Shown one piece after another: positions 8,251 to 38,084 of a stretch of 64,000 nucleotides of DNA (position 1 is the first letter of the stretch; each line of letters begins with the position of its first letter). This stretch comes from Eutreptiella sp. 'Long Island Sound 2002' (taxonomy: Eukaryota > Euglenozoa > Euglenophyceae > Eutreptiales > Eutreptiaceae): NCBI GenBank assembly GCA_964036045.1, contig OZ038382.1, positions 75,750,687-75,814,686 of the forward strand, written 5' to 3'. A model generated the notes under the pieces. That model searched no databases and was not told where the DNA came from. It worked only from the letters and a program-made list of their open reading frames with translations. The position numbers and the translations under genes were made by a program.

Positions 8251-8286
8251 TGGGATGCGCTGTTCTAGGCTGTGGTGCGGAACCCC
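8251..8286 (+). repeat. T left terminal inverted repeat
   Basis: Begins TGGGATGCGCTGTTCTAGG and ends GGTGCGGAACCCC. It pairs with the reverse complement of 19438-19473. The preceding CA at 8249-8250 is the proposed left target duplication. Confidence 0.8.
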
Positions 8287-8435
8287 CCCAATTTTGGGGG
8301 TTGTTAATATGGTTGGAACCCGGACTTTCACATGTTACATGGGTGCACTATGATGCAACAATGTGCCTCGCATGTCTCGTTTGCTCGATATTCCCCGTCT
8401 TGCACTTTTGCGATTTGGTCTTTTTATGGTCTAAC

Positions 8436-8553
8436 TAGTTAGAACGGGGTTAGAGCACTAGTTATCGCGTGGGTTATCGCGCGATAACCTAGTTATCGCG
8501 TGAGTTATCGCTAGTTATCGCGCGATAACTAGTTATCGCGTAGGTTATCGAGC
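8436..8553. repeat. T left subterminal GTTATCGCG array
   Basis: The array holds about seven copies of (A/G)GTTATCGCG in both orientations, some fused into the palindrome CGCGATAACTAGTTATCGCG, plus TTAGAGC/CTAACTAGTTAG elements. Related arrays lie at 17270-17425 and 19168-19290, all within T. Short repeated subterminal motifs are typical transposase-binding sites in large DNA transposons. Here they could also act as promoter elements for the gene starting about 60 bp downstream. Confidence 0.75.
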
Positions 8554-8610
8554 TTCATTTTCTCTTGTTCCATGTTTCCCCTCTTCGCTTTAGCTCTCAA
8601 ATACTTTGTA

Positions 8611-9358
8611 ATGGCCCTTGCTGCTGCCCACGCTTGGTGCGAGCACCATCATAAGCCCCTTGGGGTCCGTCGCCTTGCCGGACCCGAGGGGTTTTCGATG
8701 GGTGACATCAATGTGAGGCGCCCTGTGGCGAGTCATTTCGAACATGGTGTGGACTTTGGACTCATCGTCCATAAGTTCCCCTTCATGGCCGACGAGAAAG
8801 GCCCCCTGGTTCTCAGCAACTACATCTTCGAGTTGCTAGAGGTAAAGCGAGGGAATGCTGGATTTTTGATCCAGCTGCATCCGGATGATGTGGATGCCGT
8901 GGTGGAGTCCGTCACCACCCATGCCGAGAAGGGTGCGGGGACGAAGACGACCCTTTATATGGGTCAGGAGGAAGAGGAGGAAGTGGAGGAGGAAGTGGAG
9001 GAGGTGGTGGAGGTGGGGGGTGGGAGGGGGAAGGACAAGCCCCACAACCCCTCATGATTGGTGTCCGGAAGGTAAGGATCCGACCTGGTAAGGGGAAGGG
9101 GAAGTCGGATTGTTGGTTCCCCCAACCCCTCACCCACAACACCCGCCGGGTCTGCGCTGACGACCCCGAAACCAAGCTCCCCATGCACTCCCTTTGCCCC
9201 ACAAGGGAGTGGGAGCCTGAGTGGTATGGGGTCACCACTCCCAACATTATTTCGGGGCAGGGGGTGATTCTTTTTCCTTTTGGGGGCAACCCCCCCCCCT
9301 TATTGGGGAGGCGGAGGAAGTGGTTGCGGCCAAGCCCATGGGGTTTTTTAATACTTAG
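8611..9358 (+). pseudogene. T-borne hypothetical protein with acidic region
   Basis: Coding is suggested by a continuous frame from an ATG at 8611, just after the GTTATCGCG array, through segments such as LVLSNYIFELLEVKRGN and LHPDDVDAVVESV. A Glu/Val-rich acidic stretch (EEEEEVEEEVEEVVEV) lies at about residues 128-143. The frame then breaks in a G-rich run near 9015-9050 and continues in the next frame with DDPETKLPMHSLCP and TTPNIISGQGVILFPFG. A second shift at a C9 run (about 9290) leads to GEAEEVVAAKPMGFFNT and a stop at 9358. No known domain was recognised. Position at the 5' end of T, same strand as the oxygenase and transposase, suggests an accessory transposon gene. Confidence 0.45.
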
Positions 9359-9558
9359 GCGTCACAAGTTGCCCACCCTCTAGGACCCCGTATACGCGCG
9401 ATTTGACAATATTCTACATATCTACTTTGAGTATGTTATTTGACGTATGTGACCAAAGTTGTTGGCAGAGCTGTGTGACACCCGTTGAAATACGTGTTGA
9501 TGTGTTAGCCTTGTGTATCCCCGTCTTCTAGTGTGTTGTATTTTACGTTTTTCTGAAG

Positions 9559-9859
9559 CTGGCCGAAATTTCAGCCAGGTTTTGGGTAACATTGCAAACA
9601 ACTATGTGTATAACCAGTTTTTGACCCTTCTGGCCGAAATTACGGCCAGCTTTTTGGTTTCTTGGTGAATAGGCATGATTATTTTCATTTTTCTTAGGGC
9701 TGGCCGAAATTTCGGCCAGCTTTTTGGTCTGTTCACTATTCAAGCACTTATATTCTGGTTTTTGGGTGGGCTGGCCGAAATTTCGGCCAGCTTTTCCTAT
9801 TTTTGAACATGTAAGCAATTATTTCCCCTTTGAACACACCTGGCCGAAATTTCGGCCAG
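9559..9859. repeat. Five-copy palindrome array upstream of P gene 1
   Basis: Copies of CTGGCCGAAATTTCGGCCAG start at 9559 (one mismatch), 9630 (one mismatch), 9700, 9771 and 9840, so spacings are 71, 70, 71 and 69 bp. The intervening roughly 50 bp are unrelated to each other apart from frequent trailing CTT. The array ends 71 bp before the ATG of gene 1. The regular spacing with diverged spacers suggests selection on spacing, for example an array of dimer-binding sites. Confidence 0.9.
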
Positions 9860-9930
9860 CTTGCAATTGTCGTTGTTCATGAGTATTACACCATACACTC
9901 CTACATAACTGTTTTCTTGTCTCAGCATTA

Positions 9931-12142
9931 ATGTCTTCTGCTATTACTGTCAATGTTGTACATGCTGCAGTTACTGGTGCTTTTGCTACTGCAGCCAAAG
10001 GGCTGTTGCGAAATGCATTACGTGGTGGGACTCTGCAAAAGCTTTTGCAATTCTGCCTCTTGTTGCGGAAGAATCGCAGGAGCCGGCACTCCCTGACACA
10101 GTTGAAGGCCGCCGCCACCGAGAAGAAGCCCCCACGATGGTACATGACATTTTTGTCACAGTTCCATGCCCTATATTGCCTGCTGCGCCGTATGGCCCTC
10201 CCATACTCTAACTGTGGGTCTGGTTACAACTGGGGTATTATGTCCTGCCGCCAACGCCGTAAGGTAGGAGTCCTTGGTCAGTGTAACACTAAGCAGGAGT
10301 CCATTCACCATCGTGCTGGACTAGCAGCACACAACTTGTGGAACACCATGCACCGTAGGCAAGTTTGTATATGGTTTGATAACCTGAGGCGTTACAGGTC
10401 GGGAGCTGATCCCCATTCACCCGACTTAACCCTAAACTGTACAGCTGTTGCTGTTTTGCACACTACTGCCCTACCTGCATACCGGGGTCTTCCGGAGCTG
10501 GCCGAAATTGAGGCCAGGGTACCAAAGGTTGCTGATGACATCTTTCGCTCACATAGAGCATTGTTTGATCGTATTGATGTTGCCAACCAAGGTATTCAGA
10601 GAGTTTGGGTTCGTGCTCCTTTGGATATTGCCAGAAAAGATGTTCGTTCCCTCAACTGGAGACCCTTTTTCCTGTCTGAGCTCCGCTCCGGCACACACAA
10701 AGAGCTTTTGCAACTCGTGGTTGATTTGTCATGTGTGGAACACCGCACCAGACACTGTGTTCCGCTGCTTGTGGACATGAAAATACACTTTGCCCTACTT
10801 AAGCTGTGTTATGGTGCTGCTTATGTTCCCTGGAATGTACCACAATTACTGTTGGGTTTTCCTTTGGTGTACGGAGTATAGCATAGCTATAAGTATTGCG
10901 TTGAATTGATCTACAGGGCGTTCTTGCCGTTCATTAAGTTTTTGGAGCAGGGGAACAGCCTTCAGGTTGGGTCTATCCTCCCTGGCAAGGTCAAGGTCAT
11001 CCATATGGAGAAGATGTTGCTTGGACTCATGCTAGCCACATCGTCCAATAGAGGCAGACTAGATGAGCGCGTCACTTCCCTGCTCAATAGCCAGCGGGAC
11101 TTGACACCCATTCAGCGCAAGGGTTTGCGTATGTTATTAGCCCTTAAGGCTTTGCTGTACACATACTGTCCAGCTGCTTTCAGCATTGGGACTTTGGTTC
11201 GTGAGTGCAACTGGGAGGGACGGGGGGCAGGTTCCGGTATTGTAGCTAAGCAGGCACTTGAGATGTCCCTACTGCTCATGCTGAACATCCTAAAGCCCGA
11301 GGAACAGTTAACCACGGAGTATGTGAAAACCACCGCTGTTGCTCTTTTGTTTTGGAGTCAGTGGCATTCCGCCTCCCTAGGGTGTATCCACTTTGAGGAG
11401 CTGGGTGAGGCACTTCTGAGTCGGTTCTCAGCCCACTGTCGCCGCAACACTGCCTGTACTAGTGTCCAACAGTCGTCTGATTTATTTCTGACACTTCCCC
11501 CTGTCCAACCCGGAGAGAAAGTTTTGCGTGGTGTGCTGACTGAGAGATCCGTGGCAATGTTCTCTGCCAATCTTAAACAATTCATCTTGACAGCCCATAC
11601 ACAGAGCCTGCCCATTTGTGTTCCCGTTCCGGACTATAAAGTTGAGGTGAGAAGACTGGATGCAGTTGAGGATTTGACGTTCCCCGGTACCATGTCTAGG
11701 ACACGAATCACCACGGACCGTTTAAAAGTGGTTCTGTTGCACCCAATGCAAAATCTGGTTGCGCGTACCAGGGTTCCTGAGGGTGTTGAGGATTTTTTAC
11801 AGACAAATGCACCTGCCCGCACTGCTGCCGAGCAAGGGGTGTTGCGTACTGCACATGCTTCTATTCGCGCTGCCAACCGTGCACTGCCTGCTGCTGCTGC
11901 TTCTGCTCCTGGTGGAATTGCCTTGCCCCCAAAGCCACCCCCGAAGCCCCGAGCCAGAGGCCCCCCAGTACCCCCCCCCGGACCCCCCCCGCCCAGTACC
12001 CCCCCCCGCCCTTGATGATTCCATTGCTGTCGACTCTTGTGATAGTGACCGAGATATTGATTGTGATGCAGACAGCGTTGCCTCCTTTGAAGCCCTAGAT
12101 GAGGCGGAACACATCGGTGTGGATACCCAGGATTGGGACTGA
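9931..12142 (+). pseudogene. P gene 1: large unknown protein, probable mobile-element function
   Basis: The gene has one frame from ATG 9931 to about 11950, broken by a TAG at 10879-10881 (context LVYGV-stop-HSYKYC), then continuing in the same frame. A proline-rich segment (PPKPPPKPRARG) with several C runs at 11935-12010 ends the frame early. The next frame continues with an acidic tail (SDRDIDCDADS, ending IGVDTQDWD) and a stop at 12142, so one frameshift in a C run is likely. About 735 codons in all. Notable segments are CIWFDNLRRYR (about residue 150) followed by LNCTAVAVLH, and VDMKIHFALLKLCYG. The layout of acidic residues in hydrophobic contexts would suit an RNase-H-fold transposase, but no catalytic triad can be assigned with confidence. 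The sequence at 10498-10517 is an 18/20 match to the P palindrome, read as LAEIEA. Confidence 0.6.
10498..10517. repeat. Exonic near-copy of the P palindrome
   Basis: CTGGCCGAAATTGAGGCCAG differs from the palindrome only at two central-right positions, which destroys its symmetry. It lies in frame inside gene 1 and encodes LAEIEA. Confidence 0.7.
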
Positions 12143-12234
12143 TTTCTGTTTGCAGCTGTGTTTGTCACTGTGGTATGGGTTCTGCCACGCATTGCCAGTG
12201 ATTTTGGTGTGTCTATTTGCTGTTTCATGTTTTT

Positions 12235-12393
12235 CTGGCCGAAATTTCGGCCAAACTTGTTGTTTTGTCATATGGCTACCCCCAGAACACAAATGACTTA
12301 AGGTTCTGGCCGAAATTTCGGCCAGCCTCTCAGAATGGTATTTGTACACAGTGGTTTTACATGCAGAGCAGTGCTGGCCGAAATTTCGGCCAG
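12235..12393. repeat. Three-copy palindrome array between P genes
   Basis: Copies start at 12235 (last base changed), 12306 and 12374, spaced 71 and 68 bp. The array fills most of the 370 bp between the gene 1 stop (12142) and the gene 2 ATG (12513). As with the 5' array, spacers are unrelated in sequence. Confidence 0.9.
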
Positions 12394-13292
12394 GTTATCC
12401 GAATTTCCTGTCAGGCAGTCCGTTTTGGTCCTTTTTTGGTTGATCTGTGCTTGTTATTTGCTATCTGGGAACTCTCCCCTTCATGAAATGTTGCCTTGTA
12501 GCCCTTTATTTTATGACTGAGCCTGGAGGGGTATCGCAGGACATGGCTGCTTCGCCAGATGGTGAGCCTGCAGCAGACAATGGGCAATCTCAAGTGCAAT
12601 CCCAGTCTCAAGAGGACCAGGCGAGCACAGAGGGACTTCAAAAGAAGCCTAAGGCCGCACCAAAGAAAAATTCATCATCCTCCATCAAGTTATCCGACTG
12701 GGTTACGTCAACGACGAAAATAAAGGTTCGGTGGGATCAGATTATTATCGACCACGACCGAAAATTCGGGCAGGTCCGTAGGATTTCGGATGATCGCGTG
12801 CAACGCCGCTACGACGATCTGAAGGCAGCCCCGCCTGTGGATTACATCCAGGATCTTCTTTTTTATAAAGTCACTCGTATGTGTGTTGTGGTATTCTTCT
12901 CGATGGTACCGTTTTCGCGTCTGAATTTTCGACCCTGCTGTTACGAATATTCCTGTTGCACAGCCACTCGCTGGGTTCTGTTCGGGGGTCAGCATGTTTA
13001 CACTGCTGCCCAAAAACACAAGACCGAATTTGAGATGAAAAATATGGAGACTCCGGATTGGACCCTGGTATTTGGTGGTTATGAAGTCAAACAGGACTGC
13101 CCCCTGCGGACTAGGCGCCGGCTTGCAGCCTTACATCAAATCCAGACCACTGCTGGCTCAGCATCCACCACATCGGAGCGAATGTCCCTACTCCTGGATA
13201 GGCTTGAGGATGAGGATGCCAATGAGTACACCCTGTACCATCACATTACTGTTATGCTTGAAGAGTGTGGTGTTACTGCCGAGGAAGGCACT

Positions 13293-13382
13293 GTGGTGTG
13301 TTTCATTTATTAATTCGGTTTTGTCGATCGACCTGGCCGAAATTTCGGCCAGCTTCTGTGTTCCACATGTTCTCCTGTGCAG
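13293..13382 (+). other. P gene 2 intron 2 with palindrome
   Basis: GT-AG intron, donor at 13293 or 13296, acceptor CTCCTGTGCAG ending at 13382. It contains a perfect palindrome at 13333-13352, preceded by TCGATCGAC. A similar TCGACCGAC precedes the palindrome in intron 3, so the two intron inserts share flanking sequence. Confidence 0.65.
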
Positions 13383-13683
13383 AGTGCTGTTGCCAAACGG
13401 TGGGGTGGCGTTGGGCGTTTGGTGAAATTTGTGGGTCTTCCTTGAGTAGACGCCATGGCAGCCATGGAAAAGCGTGGACTACATACCGCACTGGGTACGT
13501 TCAAGGAAGTGGAAGGCATCACGCCTGACCGACTTCGCGAGATCGTAGGTTACATGGATGGGACAAAAAGTACCCTACCTGGTCTCAAAAAAATTATAAA
13601 AGATGTTAAAAAGGCCCAGATGTGGTCCTGGCACATTCTTCATCCCGAGGCGGCTACCAATGGGCTTGTGAACAACACCAGAG

Positions 13684-13811
13684 GTATGTTTTGGTCAAAC
13701 AGGGGTTTGTATTCGAATAAATCGACCGACCTGGCCGAAATTTCGGCCAGCTTGTGTGTCGTTCAATTAATGCACAATAGGAGTCCACCCTGTGCTACCA
13801 CCTGTCTGCAG
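13684..13811 (+). other. P gene 2 intron 3 with palindrome
   Basis: GTATGTTT..CTGTCTGCAG intron of 128 nt, phase 1. Joining restores the frame from NNTR into ATLGTIEMAKRQC. It contains a perfect palindrome at 13731-13750. Confidence 0.7.
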
Positions 13812-15139
13812 CTACACTTGGTACTATCGAGATGGCCAAAAGGCAGTGCGCTATTGCATCACACCTGAAGGTAGCCTATGGAAGTTGGACTCGGACTGAA
13901 GAAAACCCCTGGCCCCCGTGGTCAGCAGTAACTAAGGCCCCTCTTTGGAAGGAACCCAAATATGAGGGGTTGCGGGGATTGTTGCAGAAGCCTGTTGCTA
14001 AGCCTGTTTGTGAAAAATCTGATACTGGTCTGGTCAGTATCCAATGTGCTAGGGAGTCCCTCGTTGAGTCAAGCACAGGCAAACTCATTGCAGAGTCAGG
14101 CCGTGTGGAACTGATGGCAATGCGTTGTGGAGTCCCTGTTCCCAGTATCATTAGTTCACTGCCCTTTGCTGCTTGTGTCATTGAGGTGCCCCGCCTCTAT
14201 ACAGCTGGTTTGCATAACCTGGTTGCGCAGCTGCTTTTGTCCGGTGTGCCTGTGTTCATTGCGGGTGAGTCTGCTGATGTGAAAGCCACTGTTGCTGCTT
14301 TGAAGGCCACTGTGGCTGAGGATATGTATCAGTGTGATGTTGCACTTTACAATTTGTCAAGCAAGACCCCGCTGTACACTTCTACGTTCCATCTGGTTTC
14401 CATTTGTTCTGCCACTGCCTTTGATAGCAAGCTTCCCCGTTACGTGGCTTTTACTGAAGGACCCATGTCGTCTGTGATGCCTGTTGAAATATTCTCATTT
14501 CTTTTGAGCCTGGTTCCGGTCCCAGAACGGGCAGGCAACTGGTTTTTGCTGGGGACTCTGTCTGTGTATTTTGCAAGCATGATGTCTACCAGGTTTTCCA
14601 AGGACTGTAATGTTGTGTGTGCCCTTTTGGGTGAGGAGACTGTTGTCCCCGATGACTTTGTTCAGCTCATCAGAGCAGGTATCACCAACGCCGACACGTG
14701 CCCCCCCAAGTCATGGGAGGATGTGTACCACGACTTGGGGGCAGGTTTTCCTGTGGATTGTTCTGGGGTTAGGTATGTAGATGAGGATCCTGAGGAGCAA
14801 GATGGGGAGGCAGAGTCGCAACCAGAGACACAGACTCCAAAGAAGAAACCCAAAACTGCCCCTGCCCCCTCACCCAGTGGCACGCAGTGCGCTCAGGCCA
14901 CCCCAGCTTCCTCCTCAGGCACTGCTGCCCCTAATGGCAAAGGTATGAATACTTTTGTGAATCATTTTTCACCATCCCAGGGTGGAAACACACAGTCACA
15001 GATTTCTGCCACTGCCAAGTCTGGTGCTGCAGCCTATGCCAAGCAGCCTGCTAACACAGGTGCTAAGAAGCCCCGTGCATCTGGTCTGCGCAAGCGCTAA
15101 TGCCAGTCCTGCTGCTTATATTGCCTGTCAGCATGAAGT

Positions 15140-15462
15140 CTGGCCGAAATTTCGGCCAGCATGCGGTCCTCAGCCTCTTCAGCCTTTTATTATTGTGTTT
15201 CCCCATAGGCACTGCAAAAGTCTGCTTTGATTCGTCAGGTGGCAAGTATTTGCTTGTAATTGAGTATATTATGTTGCACACCCTGTTCAAATGTCACTGC
15301 TCCTGTGTTCCTTGCTCATGTCTACTGTCTTAGGTACCCATTTCAGTGATCATATTCGGAGTTTCGATGGACCTGGCCGAAATTTCGGCCAGCTTAGGCC
15401 TGTCTGTCAAATAGGACCATGTGTTTGGACTTTTTCGAAGAGCTGGCCGAAATTTCGGCCAG
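15140..15462. repeat. Downstream palindromes of P
   Basis: Perfect copies lie at 15140-15159 (39 bp after the gene 2 stop), 15373-15392 and 15443-15462. The last two are 70 bp apart. The copy at 15373 is preceded by TCGATGGAC, matching the context of the two intronic copies. Confidence 0.9.
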
Positions 15463-15910
15463 GTTGGTTAAAATAGGAAATACAAGTACATGCTTTGGGA
15501 TAGTTTTTTGTGTGCTTCAATGAAAGGTATGTTTGGGGTTCCCTCATCTGTGGTGTATAGGGGGGTTCTGTGATCAACCTCGAACAAAGGGGAGAGAAAA
15601 ATAGGCAGCCCCCCCCCCCCCACACACACTGGAATGCAGTGGTCTAAATTTAAAACAACACTATATTTTGGTGATTGAATGTCTTTATTTTGAAAATCTG
15701 TGTGTTTCCAGAAATGCAAATAATGGCATATATTTGAAATACACACCTTGTTTTTGCATGTTGCCACCAGGGGGGTTTGGGTACCCAAAAAATAACACCC
15801 CTTTTCACATACTTTCCCCCTCATTACAACATGGACTTCCGTGGGCTATAGTGCCAGGTGGGGGGTGGGCAACTTGTGACGCCTAAGTAATAGGGACCCA
15901 AATGATCTTC
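15463..15910. other. Spacer between P and the T oxygenase gene
   Basis: AT-richer sequence with a C-run at 15609-15620. No gene, repeat match or splice pair was recognised. Short open frames here show no conserved features. Confidence 0.5.
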
Positions 15911-17252
15911 TGTCACCACCGAGGGAAGGTTGGTGGTGAACCACTTGATCGAGCACGATTTTTTGAGTGCTGTGCGGCTGGACAGTCTTTTGGAAGATCT
16001 TTATAGGGTGCCTCTCTCATAGAAGGCACCCATTTTCAATGAGAACCCCCCCATTGTGGGCAGACCCCAAGATTCAGGGACCCGCCGCACAGTGTATGGC
16101 AACTATGGGGGTCCCAACCACCACAAGCACAACCCCCACAAGCTCCACGATCTGCCAGCCCTCAAGAGTGTGGTGGGAGAGGGGTTGGGTGGAGCTGCAC
16201 CATTCTTGACATGGCTGAAATTTCGAGCTATGACCACACCCCGCAGCACCTGCATCGCGATGCCCCCCCCCTACACTGTGCCTGAAGGCACATTGATTGT
16301 TAATTGCCTGATTATGCTCATCCACAATCATGAGGCCGGGAATGGGTTGCATTTTCTTTTTGTGCCCTCGTGCAGTTTGGGGTTCCCTAACCCTTGGGTG
16401 GAGAGGGCTGTGCCATTCAAGAGGGGCCCTGCCTTTTTTTTTAATGCTCTTGATGTTCACCGGGGGTCGGGCATTCCAAAGGCCTCGCCCACTGGTGTGA
16501 CCCATCCTCGCCTCATGGCATTCTTTGCAATTGAGCTAGCGCAAGGCCCTAATCTTCGATTCCCCAACCTGCATGTCACCCAGTCCATCAAGCGCCCCCA
16601 GTTGGGGGCACCTGGTGGCCGAGTGGCGAAGACCATCCCCTGTCAGGGGGTGGTTAGGTGTAGGGGGAAGGTCGTAGCCAAGTGCTACGGCTGCGACCGG
16701 GCGGCTTTGTGCGCCGCCCACAAAGATGGTCTTTGTGTGCCATGCCAGGAGGGGGAGGAGCCGGAGAAGGGGGAGGAGGAGGAGTTGGTGGAGGACCCCA
16801 ATGGGGTCAGCATTGAGCAATGTGCTCAGTGCTTGCTCATGGTGGGAACAACCACCGGGGTTTTTTTGTTGTCGGCGTCGGGGGGTGGGAGGGAGGTGGT
16901 TGCCCCCCTCACTAATGAGGAGGTGGGAGGGGTCGCAGGCCACCCCGATCAGTTCCCCCTGGCCAAGGTGTGCCATGGAGAGGCACTACCGCGGCACACG
17001 TTGCAAGGGCATGTTGGGATTAAGGTGCCGGCGGGCACCATTTTGGTGGTGAGGAAGGGAATGTATGGAGGAGTGGCAAGGGTCGCCCCTGAGCTCGAGG
17101 GGGCGGCCCAGGTGGCGGACTGGAGGCAAGTGGGGGAGTATGCCGCCCTCACGGACTTCGTCTGGCTGCGGAGGATGAACTTGGTGCTGGACGACCCCAA
17201 GAAGGAGGGCAAAGGTATGCCCATGTCACCAGGTGTGAAAACTGCCCACTAA
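15911..17252 (+). pseudogene. T-borne 2OG-Fe(II) oxygenase-like protein with zinc motif
   Basis: Coding starts in one frame (VVNHLIEHDFLSAVRLDSLLEDLY), with a TAG at 16020-16022. It then appears to switch frame near 16195, giving TILDMAEISSYDHTPQHLHRDAPP, and returns to the first frame after a C8 run at 16262. Oxygenase landmarks are HRD at 16253-16261 (H-x-D), His in DVHRG at 16458 about 68 residues later, and an Arg at 16509 another 17 residues on. This is the expected iron- and 2-oxoglutarate-binding spacing. A zinc-binding motif C-x2-C-x6-C-x2-H-x5-C-x2-C follows (16683-16745), then a Glu-rich patch. The protein is homologous to the F gene product in the same domain order. In T it lies directly upstream of the transposase. 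A nucleic-acid-modifying role is possible by analogy with TET/JBP enzymes in transposons, but is not shown. Confidence 0.65.
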
Positions 17253-17269
17253 ACCCTGCCCTAACCCTT

Positions 17270-17425
17270 GCTCTAACTAGTTCTCGCGACAGTTATCGCG
17301 CTCTAACTAGGTGCTCTAATTAGTTATCGCGACAGTTATCGCGCTCTAACTAGGTGCTCTAACTAGTTATCGCGCTAGGTTATCGCGTTCTACATAGTTA
17401 TCGCGGGGGTTATCGCGGGGGACCT
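17270..17425 (+). repeat. Internal GTTATCGCG / CTCTAACTAG array
   Basis: Tandem alternation of CTCTAACTAG(GTG) with AGTTATCGCG(ACAGTTATCGCG), about nine GTTATCGCG-like copies, all in plus orientation. It ends 11 bp before the transposase ATG at 17436, so it may serve as its promoter region as well as, or instead of, a transposase-binding array. Confidence 0.75.
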
Positions 17426-17435
17426 CTTATTCTTC

Positions 17436-19096
17436 ATGGATATTGAAGCTAATGAGGCCCTGAGGGCTCTGAATTCAGCTAACCTGCAGCGGTACACCGA
17501 TTTGCAATGCCCCAAGAACCGGCGGCTGCTGCTGAAGGCTGTTCAGCGGATGGTTCGAGTTCTATTGGGGGATCACAACATGGTGTGTGGCACCAACACC
17601 AAAGGAGGAGTTTGTTTAAGTGGTGGGGCGCGCACAGCCCTCTCTGGCCCACTTGGTGGCCATCTTGCATTCACAGCTGAGGAGCATGAGGCCCTGAGTA
17701 TGCTACGCATGGCATGCAGCATGCATCTTTCCCAGCGGGCCCTTTTGCGAATGCCCCGCCGTTGTACTCAACGGGACCTAAGGAGCTTCGGCAACGGGTC
17801 ATGCCCTACTTTCTCCAAGCAACCAATGTAAAGTCTACCACAGGCCGCAATAGGGCAGCCGCCCATGTGCCTTTGCAGTCAATTGTACATAATGTGATAT
17901 CTATGGCCCGAGTTATTGGGAAACCCCCCCCCTAGTGGTGTTGCCATTGTTGTCATTTCAGTTGATGCGACTTCCTTGTGGAAGGCATCCTCTACCCGTG
18001 CGGACGTATGGGTCAATGTATAGGGGGGGGGGGCAAGTATGCTTCGAAGGTGAAGCTATGGGCCTCATGGTTCTGCATGGATGGCGGGGATGAACAGGCT
18101 TTTTTGAGAATCCTGGACATCTCCGCCAACCTCAACCAAGAGGTGAGGGATGTGGAGGAGGACGTTGTCCTCTTTCAAAACCAATTTTTGACTTGCATTG
18201 TTATTTTGACGGGGGACTGGAAGGGGATGCAAGCAATGCGGGGGGCGGCGTCTAAGCGTTGGTTGTGCAAAGACCCCAATGGTATTGTTGAGCAAATGGG
18301 GGTGGAGTCCACCTTAAAATGGGGGGCATTTTTGAGATGTGTGACCCCTAATAGACGGCCGGGGGACTACCAACATGCAGCATGCCGCATTCTAAATGGC
18401 ATTGCAAAGCGCACTGAGACCACCCTTCAGGCCCTCCCCCCTGGTACCCTTGGTAAGGCCCAAGCTCCTGCAGCTTTGCAGGCCTTCAAACAAGCCCTAA
18501 AGGATAAGACCTCAGGCATCCCTCTAAGGGAACTTCTCCCCTCGGCCTCAAGGGCCGAGGAAAAATATTTTGATCTTACAAGCACCAAAGTTTTCCTAAC
18601 CTCCCCCCCCTTCCAAAGGCAATTTGTGGATTGTCTCAAGGATCATGTCCCCACAATGAGGACCCCTGGTGGACCTCCATGATGGGTTGTTGTGCATGTC
18701 ATGGTAAAATGCATTGAGGGTTTGTATGAGCTTTGGAGGGTGAGGGAGATGTACACTCTAACCCAACTGGAACGCCACCGTGCGTTGACCACAAAATCTT
18801 CAAAAGGTTGGGGAGACTCAGGTTGGTCCCCCACCACGTGGATCCATTGGTGCTTGGCACATTCCACTTTTTTTGCCGAGAAATGCAGGAACATTTTTCA
18901 GTTTTCCTCCATCCCAACGGAGTATCGGCATGGGCCTTACAAGAGGAGGCTCAAAAATTGTTTCAAGGGTTGGTCCTTGGTGAGGCCAAGTATGTCCCTC
19001 CGCCACATGCACCATTGCATGTCTATGAACCCCCCGGAGCAAGGGCTTTTGGGACTGGAGGCAGCCAAGGCCTCAGACATTGACGAGTTTGTGTGA
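17436..19096 (+). pseudogene. T transposase, DDE-type (inferred)
   Basis: Pieces in successive frames form one roughly 550-codon protein: 17436-17760 (MDIEANEALRALN...), a frame change to KELRQRVMPYFLQATNVKSTTG, another after a C9 run (17924-17932) to IVVISVDATSLWKASSTRAD, and another after a G10 run (about 18015) to 18682. A TGA at 18680 is followed in the same frame by the C-terminal part to 19096. Candidate catalytic acids are Asp in VDATSLW (17964), Asp in TGDWKGM (18215) and Glu in SIPTEYRHGPYK (18920), each followed by conserved-looking residues. The last region is clearly homologous to 23278-23757 (W(V/I)HW, PTE, GW, S-R-M-H). Family assignment is uncertain. Flanking inverted arrays and terminal repeats support a transposase role. 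Confidence 0.65.
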
Positions 19097-19167
19097 AGAA
19101 AGACCATAAATGCTTTGTGCCAAGTGTTTTGTGTTGTTTGTCCCAGTGAGGGATGGAGGAGGGGTGC

Positions 19168-19290
19168 GCGATAACTTCCCGCGATAACTGCGCGATAACT
19201 GATTTATCGCGCATTGGCGCTCTAACTAGTTAGAGCAAGGTGCTCTAACTGTGTTCTAACTGTGTTCTAACTCTGCTCTAACTCTTTGAC
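19168..19290 (-). repeat. T right subterminal array (inverted)
   Basis: Three CGCGATAAC copies, the complement of GTTATCGCG, followed by five GCTCTAACT/GTTCTAACT units. Relative to the left and internal arrays the motifs point inward, as expected for subterminal binding sites of one transposon. The remaining 148 bp to the right inverted end (19291-19437) contains no gene. Confidence 0.75.
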
Positions 19291-19437
19291 CCCCCCAAAA
19301 AAAACCACCCCTACGATGAGGGTTGTGTGGGGAACGAAAGGGGATTGGGGGGTTTTTGAGGGTGCCGAATCCATTTTTTTAGGTGGTTTGCCCCGAATTT
19401 GAGGCTAGGTGGGTGTTCCGAAAATTGTGCTCTAACT

Positions 19438-19473
19438 AGGGGTTCCGCACCAGCCCTAGAACACTGCATCCCA
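19438..19473 (-). repeat. T right terminal inverted repeat
   Basis: Reverse complement begins TGGGATGCAGTGTTCTAGGG and ends GGTGCGGAACCCC, matching 8251-8286. It is followed by CA (19474-19475), the proposed second target-site copy, then F gene sequence. Confidence 0.8.
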
Positions 19474-20405: not shown

Positions 20406-22451
20406 CTGAATGTGGTGCAACTGGGAAACTGGTAGCGGAAACCCCCAAAAACGGGCCTCCTGGGGACCCCCCCCATGGAGGTATAACAGGCTCAAAACAA
20501 CTTGAGGGGTTCGGGGGATGCATACGAAGGGGGGGCCTTCGCGGACTTTCGGATCAAACAACATAGGGGCGGTTTTTCGCAAATCCGAGAACCCCTTCTC
20601 GGGACTTCTCGGCTTACCTTCATGATTAGAAAGGGGTTCTAAAAGTGACTTCTCGGGGGGGGGGGGGGGGTTCCCAAAATGACGTCTCGGGGGGTTTCTG
20701 ATTTGGTGTGTGTGTCCATCGCTTGTCCACTTTTCTGCCCTTTGCACCTTTGGTCCATTAGTTACCCCCGTGCCCGTGCCCCCTGTGTTTGGTCGTTGGT
20801 TGCGTGACGCCAATGATCGCTTGGGCAGCCGTCTTATCGCCGCCGCCCCTACCGAATTCGAGGAGACCATCCATATCGACGGGCGACCCACGAGGGTCAC
20901 GTTCAATCCTGGGACTACGTTGGGTTGTATGGAGGCACCGCGCAGTGTTCTTGGAAAGATGGAGCCCGGGCTCGTGAGTGGCTTGGTTCACACCACCTAC
21001 ATGCTCAATCCTACACTTCGGGCCGTTTTGATCCACCTCAATAGTGCGAACGTTACGAGCCTTCTTGAGGGGATGTTGCCGCACGTTCCAAACCTAAAGG
21101 ACAAGGCCAAGGGAAAGGAACCCACCGGTCGGGCCTAAGATGATTTGGTTTATTGGATTGGAGCGGATGCGGACGATTGTGTGTTTTTCGCAAGCACCAA
21201 GCCGAGCCCCTCGGAGATGACACGTTGTGCCTTTGGAAGTGCCCCAATTGGTCACAAGGAGCGTGTATTGGCGGCCTCCAAGATGGACACCTTTGCGCTT
21301 TGGAGTTTGGCAACCCATTCCGGACTTGCCTTTGCGGATCCGTCGGAGGGCATTACCACCCCATCCCATGTGGCAGGGAAAATTGTGGCACTACCGAGGC
21401 AATGTCCGTTGCTATGGGTTGGGTTGGGAGACCCACCCACGGTTGGTGTATCACGCTCCGAGTTCACCTTCAATGAAGACCCAAGCAAATTGGATGGGAC
21501 GGAACACATGTTGTGGAAAGGGGTGGTGGCCACGGCAATGCTTCATAAGGTTGTGGAAGCCCTTGAAACTCGACCATGCCACACTTCGGATCCCGTATTC
21601 AATGACTTTCCCGGTGTTCACCGCGGTCCACACTCGGGAAATAGAAGGATGTTTGCCCTACCACCTCCTCTTGTTGACGTAGAAGGATGGGGTGTTGGAT
21701 ACCATGAATGTGAGGCCCTCATGTCATACACAAACTTGCTTCTCAGCTTGTTCAACAACACATGGAGTGGGGACCACAAGGCGTACCAGCGGCCTCAATA
21801 TGTGCGAAGGGGCGTGAAATGCAATCCTACCATCGCGACATGATGAAGGTTCCCAATGCGAAGAGGGTGCTGTCCATTTTTGCGGCCTTGGGCGAGGACT
21901 TGTATTCCGATGATGGCACCGACACTGCTTTCTTGCCACATAGCCGTGAGGGTTTGCCCCGTCCATGGGACCCTATTCCCATTCCGCTGCGACGCCGTGA
22001 CTTGTTCCTCTTGTACAGCGACTTAGTCCATGCGGGCGGGTGTACACCTCTTTCCAAGCCCGAGTCATGGTGCAGACGAGTGCTTTTCTTGAGCATTGCC
22101 ACCATTCCCGTCACATACGCGTACGCGGTCGGAGTTCGCGTTCCGTTTCGGGGTTTGCAGGAAAGCCGCGACGTTGACAGGCCAGAGTGCCGTACTATCT
22201 CGGGTTGTCGGCAGAAAGCCACGAAGGACTGCTTCGGTTGTGGGGTGCCGAGGCTCTGTGCCACTCACGAGAGGGAGCTATGCCCGGCGTGCTCACAGGT
22301 TAGTGTTGGTAGTAAGGTGAGTGCGGCGGCTAGTGCTCTTGAGGCGCTGGAGTTTCTAGTCGGGGTCACGTGTTTGCTTCCTGTCGTGACTTCCACACTG
22401 CACCTTGCCTTGCACCCCCTGCCAGCACCCTCCCAACCCTTTTCGACCTGA
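20406..22451 (+). pseudogene. F gene copy C: uninterrupted 2OG-Fe(II) oxygenase-like gene
   Basis: This is the most complete F copy. The leader runs 20406-20709. The first frame (from about 20710) contains GRWLRDANDRLGSRLIAAAP. A TAA at 21136-21138 replaces a CAA present in copy B; the frame then continues to about 21786, where a one-base shift leads into the C-terminal frame ending at 22451. The C-terminal domain has HRD at 21831-21839, His in DLVHAGG at 22029 (66 residues later) and Arg at 22074/22077, the classic H-x-D...H...R arrangement of 2-oxoglutarate/Fe(II) oxygenases. A zinc-type motif follows (CFGCGVPRLCATHERELCPAC, about 22230-22290). The N-terminal 350 residues are unrecognised. 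It lacks the T insertion and serves as the empty-site reference. A transposase remnant lies 0.8 kb downstream, the same order as in T. Confidence 0.7.
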
Positions 22452-35929: not shown

Positions 35930-36509
35930 TCATTGTGGTTAGGTTGCAGGTTGTAGAATGCCCCAAAGCAGATAAAGGGGCTGCTTCAGGTTTCATTGAG
36001 GTTTCATTGGCAATGCCACCCTCCCTCCTCTTGGTATTGTGGTGTGTGGGGGTGGGCTGTGGTGTGTGGAGGTGTGGTGTGTGGGGTTGTGGGGTGTGGG
36101 GGTGTGGGTTTTGGGGCTGTGGTGTGTGGAGGTGTGATGTTTGGGGCTGTGGGGTGTGGGGCTGTGCCGCCCCCCCCGAAAAGCACAATCAAATTTGTGT
36201 CTAAGCCCCGCAGTATGCAACCCCCCCACACCCCTAAAGCCCCACCCCCGGAAGTCTCCCGCCCCCCCGGGTGCCTGAAATGGTGAGGCCCAACAAGTAC
36301 GCATGCCCCGTGGTGTGTGTGGTTGTGTGTTATGCACCTTTTTTCACGTTAAATTTTGCGTCGCTTTCGTTAATTTTTCGAGATTCATATTAACGCTCGC
36401 GTGGATTAATAATTAATGTATTAATTAATTTTTGGCTCGATAATATTAATTTCCAGAAATTAGCTCAGGGGGTCGAAATTTAACTTTTGGTTTTTTGTGT
36501 TTTTTTCGG

Positions 36510-37165
36510 ACTGCACACCCCCAACATCCCACAGCCCCACACCACAAACCCCAAACCCCCACAGCGGCACCCCCCACAGCCCCAAGCACCGCAGCCCCGA
36601 AGGGCACCGTGCCCGGTATACCATTACCCCACAGCCCAGCAACCCACAGCCCCACACCCCACAGCCCCAAGCACCACAATCCAAATTGTCACAGCACGGC
36701 ACGCCACAGCCCCACACCCTCCAACCCAACAAACCATAGCCCAACACACCACAGCACCCCACTCCTGCCCCACTGCCCCACACAGCAAAACTGCACGCAC
36801 AGCCCCATGCACCACAGCTCTGCACACCACAGCCCCAAACGCACCGCCTTACATCCCACAGCCCCACACCAGGCAGCTCCACACCCCACAGGCCCACACC
36901 CCACAGGCCCACACCCCACGGGCCCAAGCAGCACAGCCCCAAACATGCCACAGGCCCACACCCTGCAACCCAACACCCCACAGCCCTACACCCCACAGGG
37001 CCACACCCCACAGCCCACACGCCACAGCCCCACACACCACAACCCCACACGCCACGGCCCCACACACCCCAGCCCTGTACACTACATCGCCACACCCCAC
37101 AACCCCACACACCCTAGCCGGACACCCCAAAGGCCCACACACTACAAGCGCACACACCAAAGCCC
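36510..37165. repeat. CCCCACA-type minisatellite
   Basis: About 650 bp of irregular 9-12 bp units such as CACAGCCCCACACCC. A G-rich relative lies at 36040-36170 (GTGTGGGGCTGTG) and another C-rich block at 37350-37745. Long open frames on both strands here simply translate the repeat. Confidence 0.85.
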
Positions 37166-37862
37166 CACATTGCCCCCCTTGTTTCCGTTTGATTTTTAGA
37201 CCGCCGGTGTTAAATTCTGGAGATTAATATTTAATTTTTGGACCGGCGTTCCAAATATCAAAAATTAACCGATAATATTATCTTACCAGAAATTAAAAAG
37301 TCGTCCCAAAAATTAATTATCCCCCCCAGTCCCTCGTGCACTGATTTTCTGCACCCACAATGCACCACAACCCACCACAAGGCTGCAATGCACCCCCACA
37401 GCACCCCCCCCCCCCCCCCATGCAACAGCCCCAAACACCACAGCACCTGACACCAAACCCCACACATGTCCACCACACACCCATATACCACAGCCGTACC
37501 CACCACAACCCCACACCACAACCCCACAGACCACAACCCTAGAAACCTCAGCCCCACACACCAGAATCCTAGAAACCACTCCCCCACACAGCACAGCCCC
37601 AAACATCACACCCCCACACACCACAGCCCTAGAAACCACACCGAGACGAACCATAGGCCCACACACCACAGCCCCACGAACCCACACACCCACACACCAC
37701 AGCCCTAGGAACCATAACCCTAGACCCCATAGCCCCAAACATCACACACCACAATACAAAAGGGGGGGGGGGTGGCATTGCCAATGAAACCTGAACTAGC
37801 CCCTTTATCTCCTTTGGGGCATACTACAACCTAGAAACTAGCCACAATGGACACACGTGCAT

Positions 37863-37863
<1 letters not shown>

Positions 37864-37905
<42 letters not shown>
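37864..37905. repeat. (CA)n microsatellite
   Basis: About 21 uninterrupted CA units inside the right arm of the foldback element. Its counterpart in the left arm is the (TG)n at about 35904-35929. Confidence 0.9.
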
Positions 37906-37907
<2 letters not shown>

Positions 37908-38084
37908 TACCTACAACCTTTTTCTCCTTGCTAAATTTTCAACGAAATCTTTTCTTCAAAAAGATAACCTGTGGAAAGAAAGGGCATACCCTCCCAAACC
38001 TTAGGCGCAAGGGCAACGGGAGGAGAGAGGAAGGAGCAAGGAGGTGTGTGTGGCAGAGGTTGGGTGTGTGGGGGTGCCAATATC

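Follow-up and report, generated by a model that had tools for sequence, protein, structure and literature searches.

The question raised by this locus is what a short palindrome, repeated many times at nearly constant intervals, might do. The locus lies in a 64,000-nucleotide stretch of the genome of the euglenophyte Eutreptiella sp. 'Long Island Sound 2002' (assembly GCA_964036045.1, contig OZ038382.1, positions 75,750,687 to 75,814,686 of the forward strand), which is referred to here as the window. An initial annotation described thirteen copies of a perfect 20-bp palindrome with a period of about 70 bp and unrelated spacers, and suggested dimer-binding sites, a partition or replication site, or a series of RNA hairpins. 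A scan of the window returned the same 13 copies, ten exact and three with one change (9559, 9630 and 12235), and reproduced the cluster spacings of 71/70/71/69, 71/68 and 70 bp. When up to three mismatches were allowed there were 14 matches, compared with 0 in 100 dinucleotide shuffles. The fourteenth, absent from the initial annotation, is a degenerate site with two changes at 10498..10517 (+ strand), located within the reading frame of gene A and of doubtful function.

Every palindrome was found to lie within a 6534-bp element (9354..15887, + strand) bounded by perfect 25-bp terminal inverted repeats (TIRs), CTTAGGCGTCACAAGTTGCCCACCC at 9354..9378 on the + strand and its partner at 15863..15887 on the - strand. 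The element is flanked by the target-site duplication (TSD) TAATA, at 9349..9353 and again at 15888..15892. Similar copies occur elsewhere in the genome, and stretches 97.5-98.7% identical to the window element are present at loci L028, L031, L032 and L033. In this family, designated family 1, the TIR begins CTTAGGCG. Among the elements and derivatives with both ends, the 5-bp TSD was exact in seven of nine and had one mismatch in the other two (L033 and L050). Inverted repeats together with a duplication of fixed length identify a TIR transposon, and the palindrome array is part of a mobile, multi-copy DNA transposon of this type. A partition or replication site was rejected because the array belongs to such a many-copy element.

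The search was extended to the genome, comprising 2.28 Gb in 2205 contigs. At up to one mismatch the palindrome has 9307 sites, the reversed-pattern control none, and for the family-1 TIR the two strands gave 792 and 802 sites. Within the first 100 TIR sites listed there were 37 convergent pairs less than 16 kb apart, 11 of them 6.4-6.7 kb and 11 of them 3.87-3.96 kb in length. The initial annotation had named scattering of the 20-mer over the genome as an argument against a functional array; instead, all 50 of the palindrome sites that were listed, from the single contig C1, were confined to element interiors, between family-1 TIRs as judged by eye. A bacterial or viral origin was considered and rejected: the exact 20-mer was not found in viral contigs, and among 84,980 prokaryote genomes it occurred in 11 stretches (L001-L011), one site each. 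Several of these 11 bacterial contigs are from Marinobacter, Onishia and Halomonas.

The element carries three genes, all on the + strand, with the palindromes, also assigned to the + strand, arranged around them. Gene A (9931..12142), a candidate transposase, is broken in this copy: it has an in-frame stop (residue 317), and its frame changes near 12006-12008. Gene B has an open frame at 12513..13313 with a possible further exon to ~13436, and gene C (13455..15100) consists of exons 13455-13683 and 13812-15100; both are backed by relatives in a second family, family 2. Splicing joins gene C into one 505-aa frame, and the family-2 homology of its first exon ends at the donor. Five palindromes (9559, 9630, 9700, 9771 and 9840) form a cluster in the 5' leader at 9559..9859, and three (12235, 12306 and 12374) occupy the gap between genes A and B at 12235..12393. 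One lies past the open frame of gene B in a putative intron (13333..13352; donor 13296/13298, acceptor 13382/13384) and one in the gene C intron (13731..13750 within 13684-13811). The remaining three are downstream, one 40 nt past the stop of gene C (15140..15159) and a pair at 15373 and 15443, 70 bp apart (15373..15462). None of the 13 good sites falls in a putative exon; together these exons take up 4476 of the 6534 bp. The 658-bp interval holding the degenerate site at 10498 recurs in the family-1 copies at L028, L031, L032 and L033. A translated-palindrome pattern was present in 8 of 138 proteins, which were chosen by the pattern itself and therefore show that some read-through frames have kept the palindrome but give no rate.

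The possibility was considered that the array is an inert remnant, a satellite-like unit that was tandemly duplicated and has no function. The ~70-bp tandem units are what such a process would leave. In 78 pairwise comparisons of spacers the alignment z averaged 0.18 for the 50 nt downstream and 0.35 for the 50 nt upstream, so that the description of the spacers as unrelated holds for most pairs, although a few do align. The segments 9630-9724 and 9700-9795 are 79.8% identical, palindromes included, which favors duplication of these units. By eye, an upstream stretch ATTCG...TCGA..GAC is common to 13333, 13731 and 15373, and the scores of the upstream pairs 13333/15373 and 13731/15443 were matched by 0 of 200 shuffles.

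Family 2 was sampled at 14 loci (L034-L047). Its TIR begins CTTAGGCCACGC, and the TSD in 10 copies was exact in five, had one mismatch in two, agreed over the four printed bases in one and was unclear in two. The family-2 palindrome, CTGGGCGAAATTTCGCCCAG, differs from that of family 1 at position 5 and at its partner, position 16, both changed symmetrically. In family 2 the leader gaps measure mostly 69, 69 and 111-121, those between A and B mostly 70, and that at the 3' end 69. Among intervals shorter than 130 bp, 32 of 32 in five family-1 copies measured 68-71 bp and 38 of 50 in the 14 family-2 loci measured 69-70 bp. Spacers compared between the families had a mean z of 0.19 (n=84), against 19.8 (n=12) for the control within family 2, and E1 aligned with family 2 at the DNA level only in coding parts (four loci displayed). 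As the initial annotation had anticipated, spacing is conserved beyond spacer sequence: in families 1 and 2 the interval of ~70 bp has been kept while the spacers no longer align.

Shortened derivatives bear on the same point. L029 and L050, each 3.9 kb long, share 96.5% identity; they carry the family-1 TIR, lack genes A and C, and at up to four mismatches contain 31 and 30 sites. Elements of their length make up 11 of the 37 convergent TIR pairs. L049 (2.3 kb) has 17 sites, and in the three derivatives together 49 of the 60 intervals below 130 bp are 68-78 bp. The repeated duplication of palindrome blocks in the derivative would suit an inert tandem unit, as would the lack of excess conservation among recent copies described below. 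However, across three segments colinear with L029 the palindromes were better kept than their flanks, with 168 of 180 palindrome cells identical and 1218 of 1588 other cells (summed by hand). Between families, moreover, spacer similarity is lost while palindrome and spacing persist, and in a third family the sites are single and dispersed. An inert remnant is, in our judgment, scarcely credible.

The derivatives are also relevant to a second explanation, that the palindromes are the transposase's own sites, on which it would build the transposition complex at the two ends, the internal copies being by-products or decoys. The distance from the clusters to the end of the element is 205 bp on the left and 425 bp on the right, and the 3.9-kb derivative retains the ends with its sites amplified. 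Against this, all three families also have sites well away from the ends, in the A-B gap and putative introns, where they have no evident use in end pairing, and the derivative L048 lacks the left cluster, though the deletion may postdate insertion. Transposase docking is thus considered unlikely.

Because the leader, intron and 3' sites imply that many copies would be transcribed, the palindromes could instead act as RNA hairpins (stem CUGGCCG, loop AAAUUU) in splicing, stability or packaging of transcripts. The double change in family 2 preserves the base pair, as such a hairpin would demand. However, the consensus centers are themselves self-complementary (AAATTT, GGCC), which is unneeded in a loop, the single changes at 9559 and 12235 break a stem pair with no compensation, and an Rfam scan of the window gave no match. 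The hairpin series suggested by the initial annotation is conceivable, but it is less likely than dimer-binding sites and we rate it as very improbable.

A third family was sampled as a single copy, at locus L051, and by genome counts. Its TIR begins CTTAGCCCACGC, with TTTTT flanking both sides, and its perfect palindrome, AGTGCGCGAGGCCTCGCGCACT, is unrelated to the other two. There are 10 sites in L051 (up to three mismatches) and 5885 in the genome (up to one mismatch; control 0). Three of the sites in L051 (4510, 4883 and 5665) lie in putative introns; around 4883 and 5665 several choices of donor and acceptor join the gene C frames (180 combinations), and the borders around 4510 were placed by eye only. 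All three families have CTTAG... termini, and each repeats a motif of its own in non-coding regions, giving three motifs for three families. Dozens of genomic matches to P0101 from family 3 have equal scores and no stops, which suggests a very recent burst. At L051:7629-7938, palindromes akin to those of family 3 (e.g. TTTGCGTGAGGCCTCACGCAAA, with symmetric changes) precede a right end that resembles the family-1 TIR and possibly represent a fourth family.

The third family also bears on whether a host transcription or silencing factor binds the sites and recruits expression or repression. Placement in leader and introns would suit enhancers, and many family-1 copies have one site in common. 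Nevertheless, a single host protein that serves all the palindromes is hard to imagine, since three families in one genome carry three different palindromes, one of them unrelated to the others. All of the 50 sites listed lie inside the element, so that among these no use by a host gene was seen. A host factor is accordingly regarded as quite improbable.

The palindrome array is real and functional-looking. The near-perfect symmetry, the double change in family 2, the separate palindrome of family 3 and the retained spacing make an array of dimer-binding sites, the first suggestion of the initial annotation, the best supported reading. On balance we consider it somewhat more likely than not that the palindromes are cis-acting sites of the transposon, bound by a family-specific homodimer that the element itself encodes, with activation or anti-silencing as the likeliest role. 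A dimeric DNA-binding protein is proposed because of the symmetry, the differing palindromes of related families, the placement in non-coding regions and the concerted change of paired positions. Such a protein would bind the palindrome of its own family as double-stranded DNA, and since the sites lie in the leader, the A-B gap, the introns and the 3' end, binding would cover the whole element. It would probably sustain expression of the element and protect it from silencing, in the manner of VANC or TnpA, and perhaps also aid transposition. The protein, its encoding by the element, its dimeric state and its anti-silencing role are all inferred from sequence, the last from the layout and from CpG depletion only. 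The observed/expected CpG ratio is 0.61 in the window, 0.55 in the element and 0.52-0.70 in six loci, with an excess of TpG/CpA, which would fit a host that methylates its DNA.

Several observations weigh against this proposal. The derivative at L048 (2.17 kb, TSD intact) has three sites only, all at the right end. Among five recent family-1 copies, pairwise differences amounted to 2.7% in palindromes, 2.4% in other non-coding sequence and 2.0% in coding sequence; the absence of excess conservation is what young neutral copies would be expected to show. In comparisons between families 1 and 2, a few spacer pairs score z >3. In family 2, above all in the leader and the 3' pair, many palindromes are imperfect and recur in that form, and a scan of the family found no counterpart of the sites at 13333 or 15140. 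The ~70-bp periodicity stands for families 1 and 2 and fails in family 3, where spacing is irregular, and two family-3 sites, 4883 and 6704, have an asymmetric center. In the relic L052, the ~4 kb preceding its transposase-like stretch yielded no palindrome of at least 14 bp. Finally, Pfam recognized a DNA-binding domain in none of A, B and C, the AlphaFold models of A1 and A2 were poor (mean predicted local distance difference test scores of 54.6 and 35.0), and a PDB fold search returned no match at E<=0.001.

The genes themselves were compared with other proteins. Pfam gave 0 families at E<=1 for A (searched as two pieces), B and C. For the gene A protein A1, a candidate for a DDE-type transposase, the first member matched none and 24 members gave four weak families, the best at E 0.085, each in only 1-2 of the 24. 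The sequence search of PDB returned two ribosomal-protein matches only (E 3.6 and 4), and single-protein searches in viral contigs found no relatives of A or C. Homologs of all three genes occur in family 2. Its gene A is about 46% identical, with 39-50% among the members compared; over the longer matches B is mostly 40-53% and C mostly 31-40% identical, and the first exon of C reaches 43-59%. In family 3 the identities are 30-35% for A, 23% for B (E 4.5e-10) and 25-30% for C (E 8e-5 and 2e-5). Unbroken relatives of gene A are represented by P0070 (722 aa) and P0067, and near-identical relatives abound, with 267 members for P0070 and, for gene C, 134 for P0103 and 175 for P0104. Gene A, the largest, is a candidate transposase by its size, its conservation and the conserved acidic residues of A1 (WFDN, LVD and EE..EA, identified by eye). 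L029 and L050 keep an upstream part of gene B, L029 matching B at 63% over 149 residues, and this retained part may be a hint as to which protein binds the palindrome.

Known systems offer partial parallels. Two papers describe sequence-specific escape from silencing in Arabidopsis VANDAL elements through VANC anti-silencing proteins, whose target motifs are family-specific, mainly non-coding, found in introns and upstream regions, and expanded as tandem repeats (PMC5735166, PMC10398659). The present families likewise have motif arrays in the non-coding parts of a multi-gene transposon, introns and upstream regions included, the motif differs between related families, the arrays grow by tandem repetition, and the host appears from CpG depletion to be a methylating one. 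However, the motif here is a palindrome of 20-22 bp and that of VANC is directional and nine bases long, and since A, B and C have no Pfam match, neither a Mutator-like element (MULE) transposase nor a VANC-type protein was recognized. The likeness to the VANC system is one of layout. Taken alone, the 5-bp TSD is compatible with the MuDR group, where one account gives a range of 4-10 bp (PMC10045372).

TnpA of En/Spm (CACTA) is described as a transposon protein connected with the activation and demethylation of the element that encodes it (PMC10398659). In the proposal favored here, too, the element's own protein would activate it. The sites of TnpA are short and subterminal and, unlike those here, are not known to be palindromic. 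CACTA/EnSpm (CMCT) elements are described as having mostly CA..TG termini and a TSD of 2-5 bp (PMC12730594); a 5-bp TSD is permitted by this, but all three families have CTTAG termini. For hAT elements, the available descriptions mention subterminal repeats with several transposase-bound sites near the ends and a 5-bp TSD in hAT5 (PMC12730594, PMC10368747). The TSD length and the several sites near the ends agree with this, whereas the sites here also occur in introns and between genes. No hAT match was found for protein A in Pfam, although divergence could put a hAT domain below detection. No earlier description of such palindrome arrays in transposons was found among the open-licence PMC papers listed. 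The layout resembles that of VANDAL and its VANC targets, with genes that match no known family, a variant of a known arrangement.

Family 1 itself interrupts a second, unrelated transposon (8251..19473, strand not assigned, right end approximate) with an inverted repeat of its own, TGGGATGC...; the sequences on either side of family 1 align to an uninterrupted copy of this transposon at 20410-22413. It has its own motif arrays at ~8461-8540, 17271-17417 and 19167-19283, made of GTTATCGCG in both orientations and of GCTCTAACTAG. They are found close to each end and in the gap separating two open reading frames, in an arrangement similar to that of family 1 with unrelated TIRs. Elsewhere in the window, positions 36000-38000 show strong strand asymmetry (GC skew -0.40) and CCCCACA-type tandem repeats, and 15 other open reading frames gave three weak Pfam matches, all under the curated cut-offs.

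It is possible, though we would put it short of probable, that these families form an undescribed superfamily of three-gene DNA transposons with CTTAG termini and a 5-bp TSD, in which a VANC-like system evolved independently and palindrome and dimeric protein co-evolve as an address code. If so, every family would bear a perfect palindrome of its own, in introns and between genes, and a matching dimeric protein would shield or activate the whole element. An additional lineage that shares this layout, with unrelated genes, would make sequence-specific escape from silencing a recurrent solution. The genome would then hold a natural series of related proteins whose palindromes are altered by one symmetric pair or completely, and this series could teach how a DNA-binding protein evolves in step with its site. 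Because the sites are simple and exact and occur in large numbers, binding would be directly testable.

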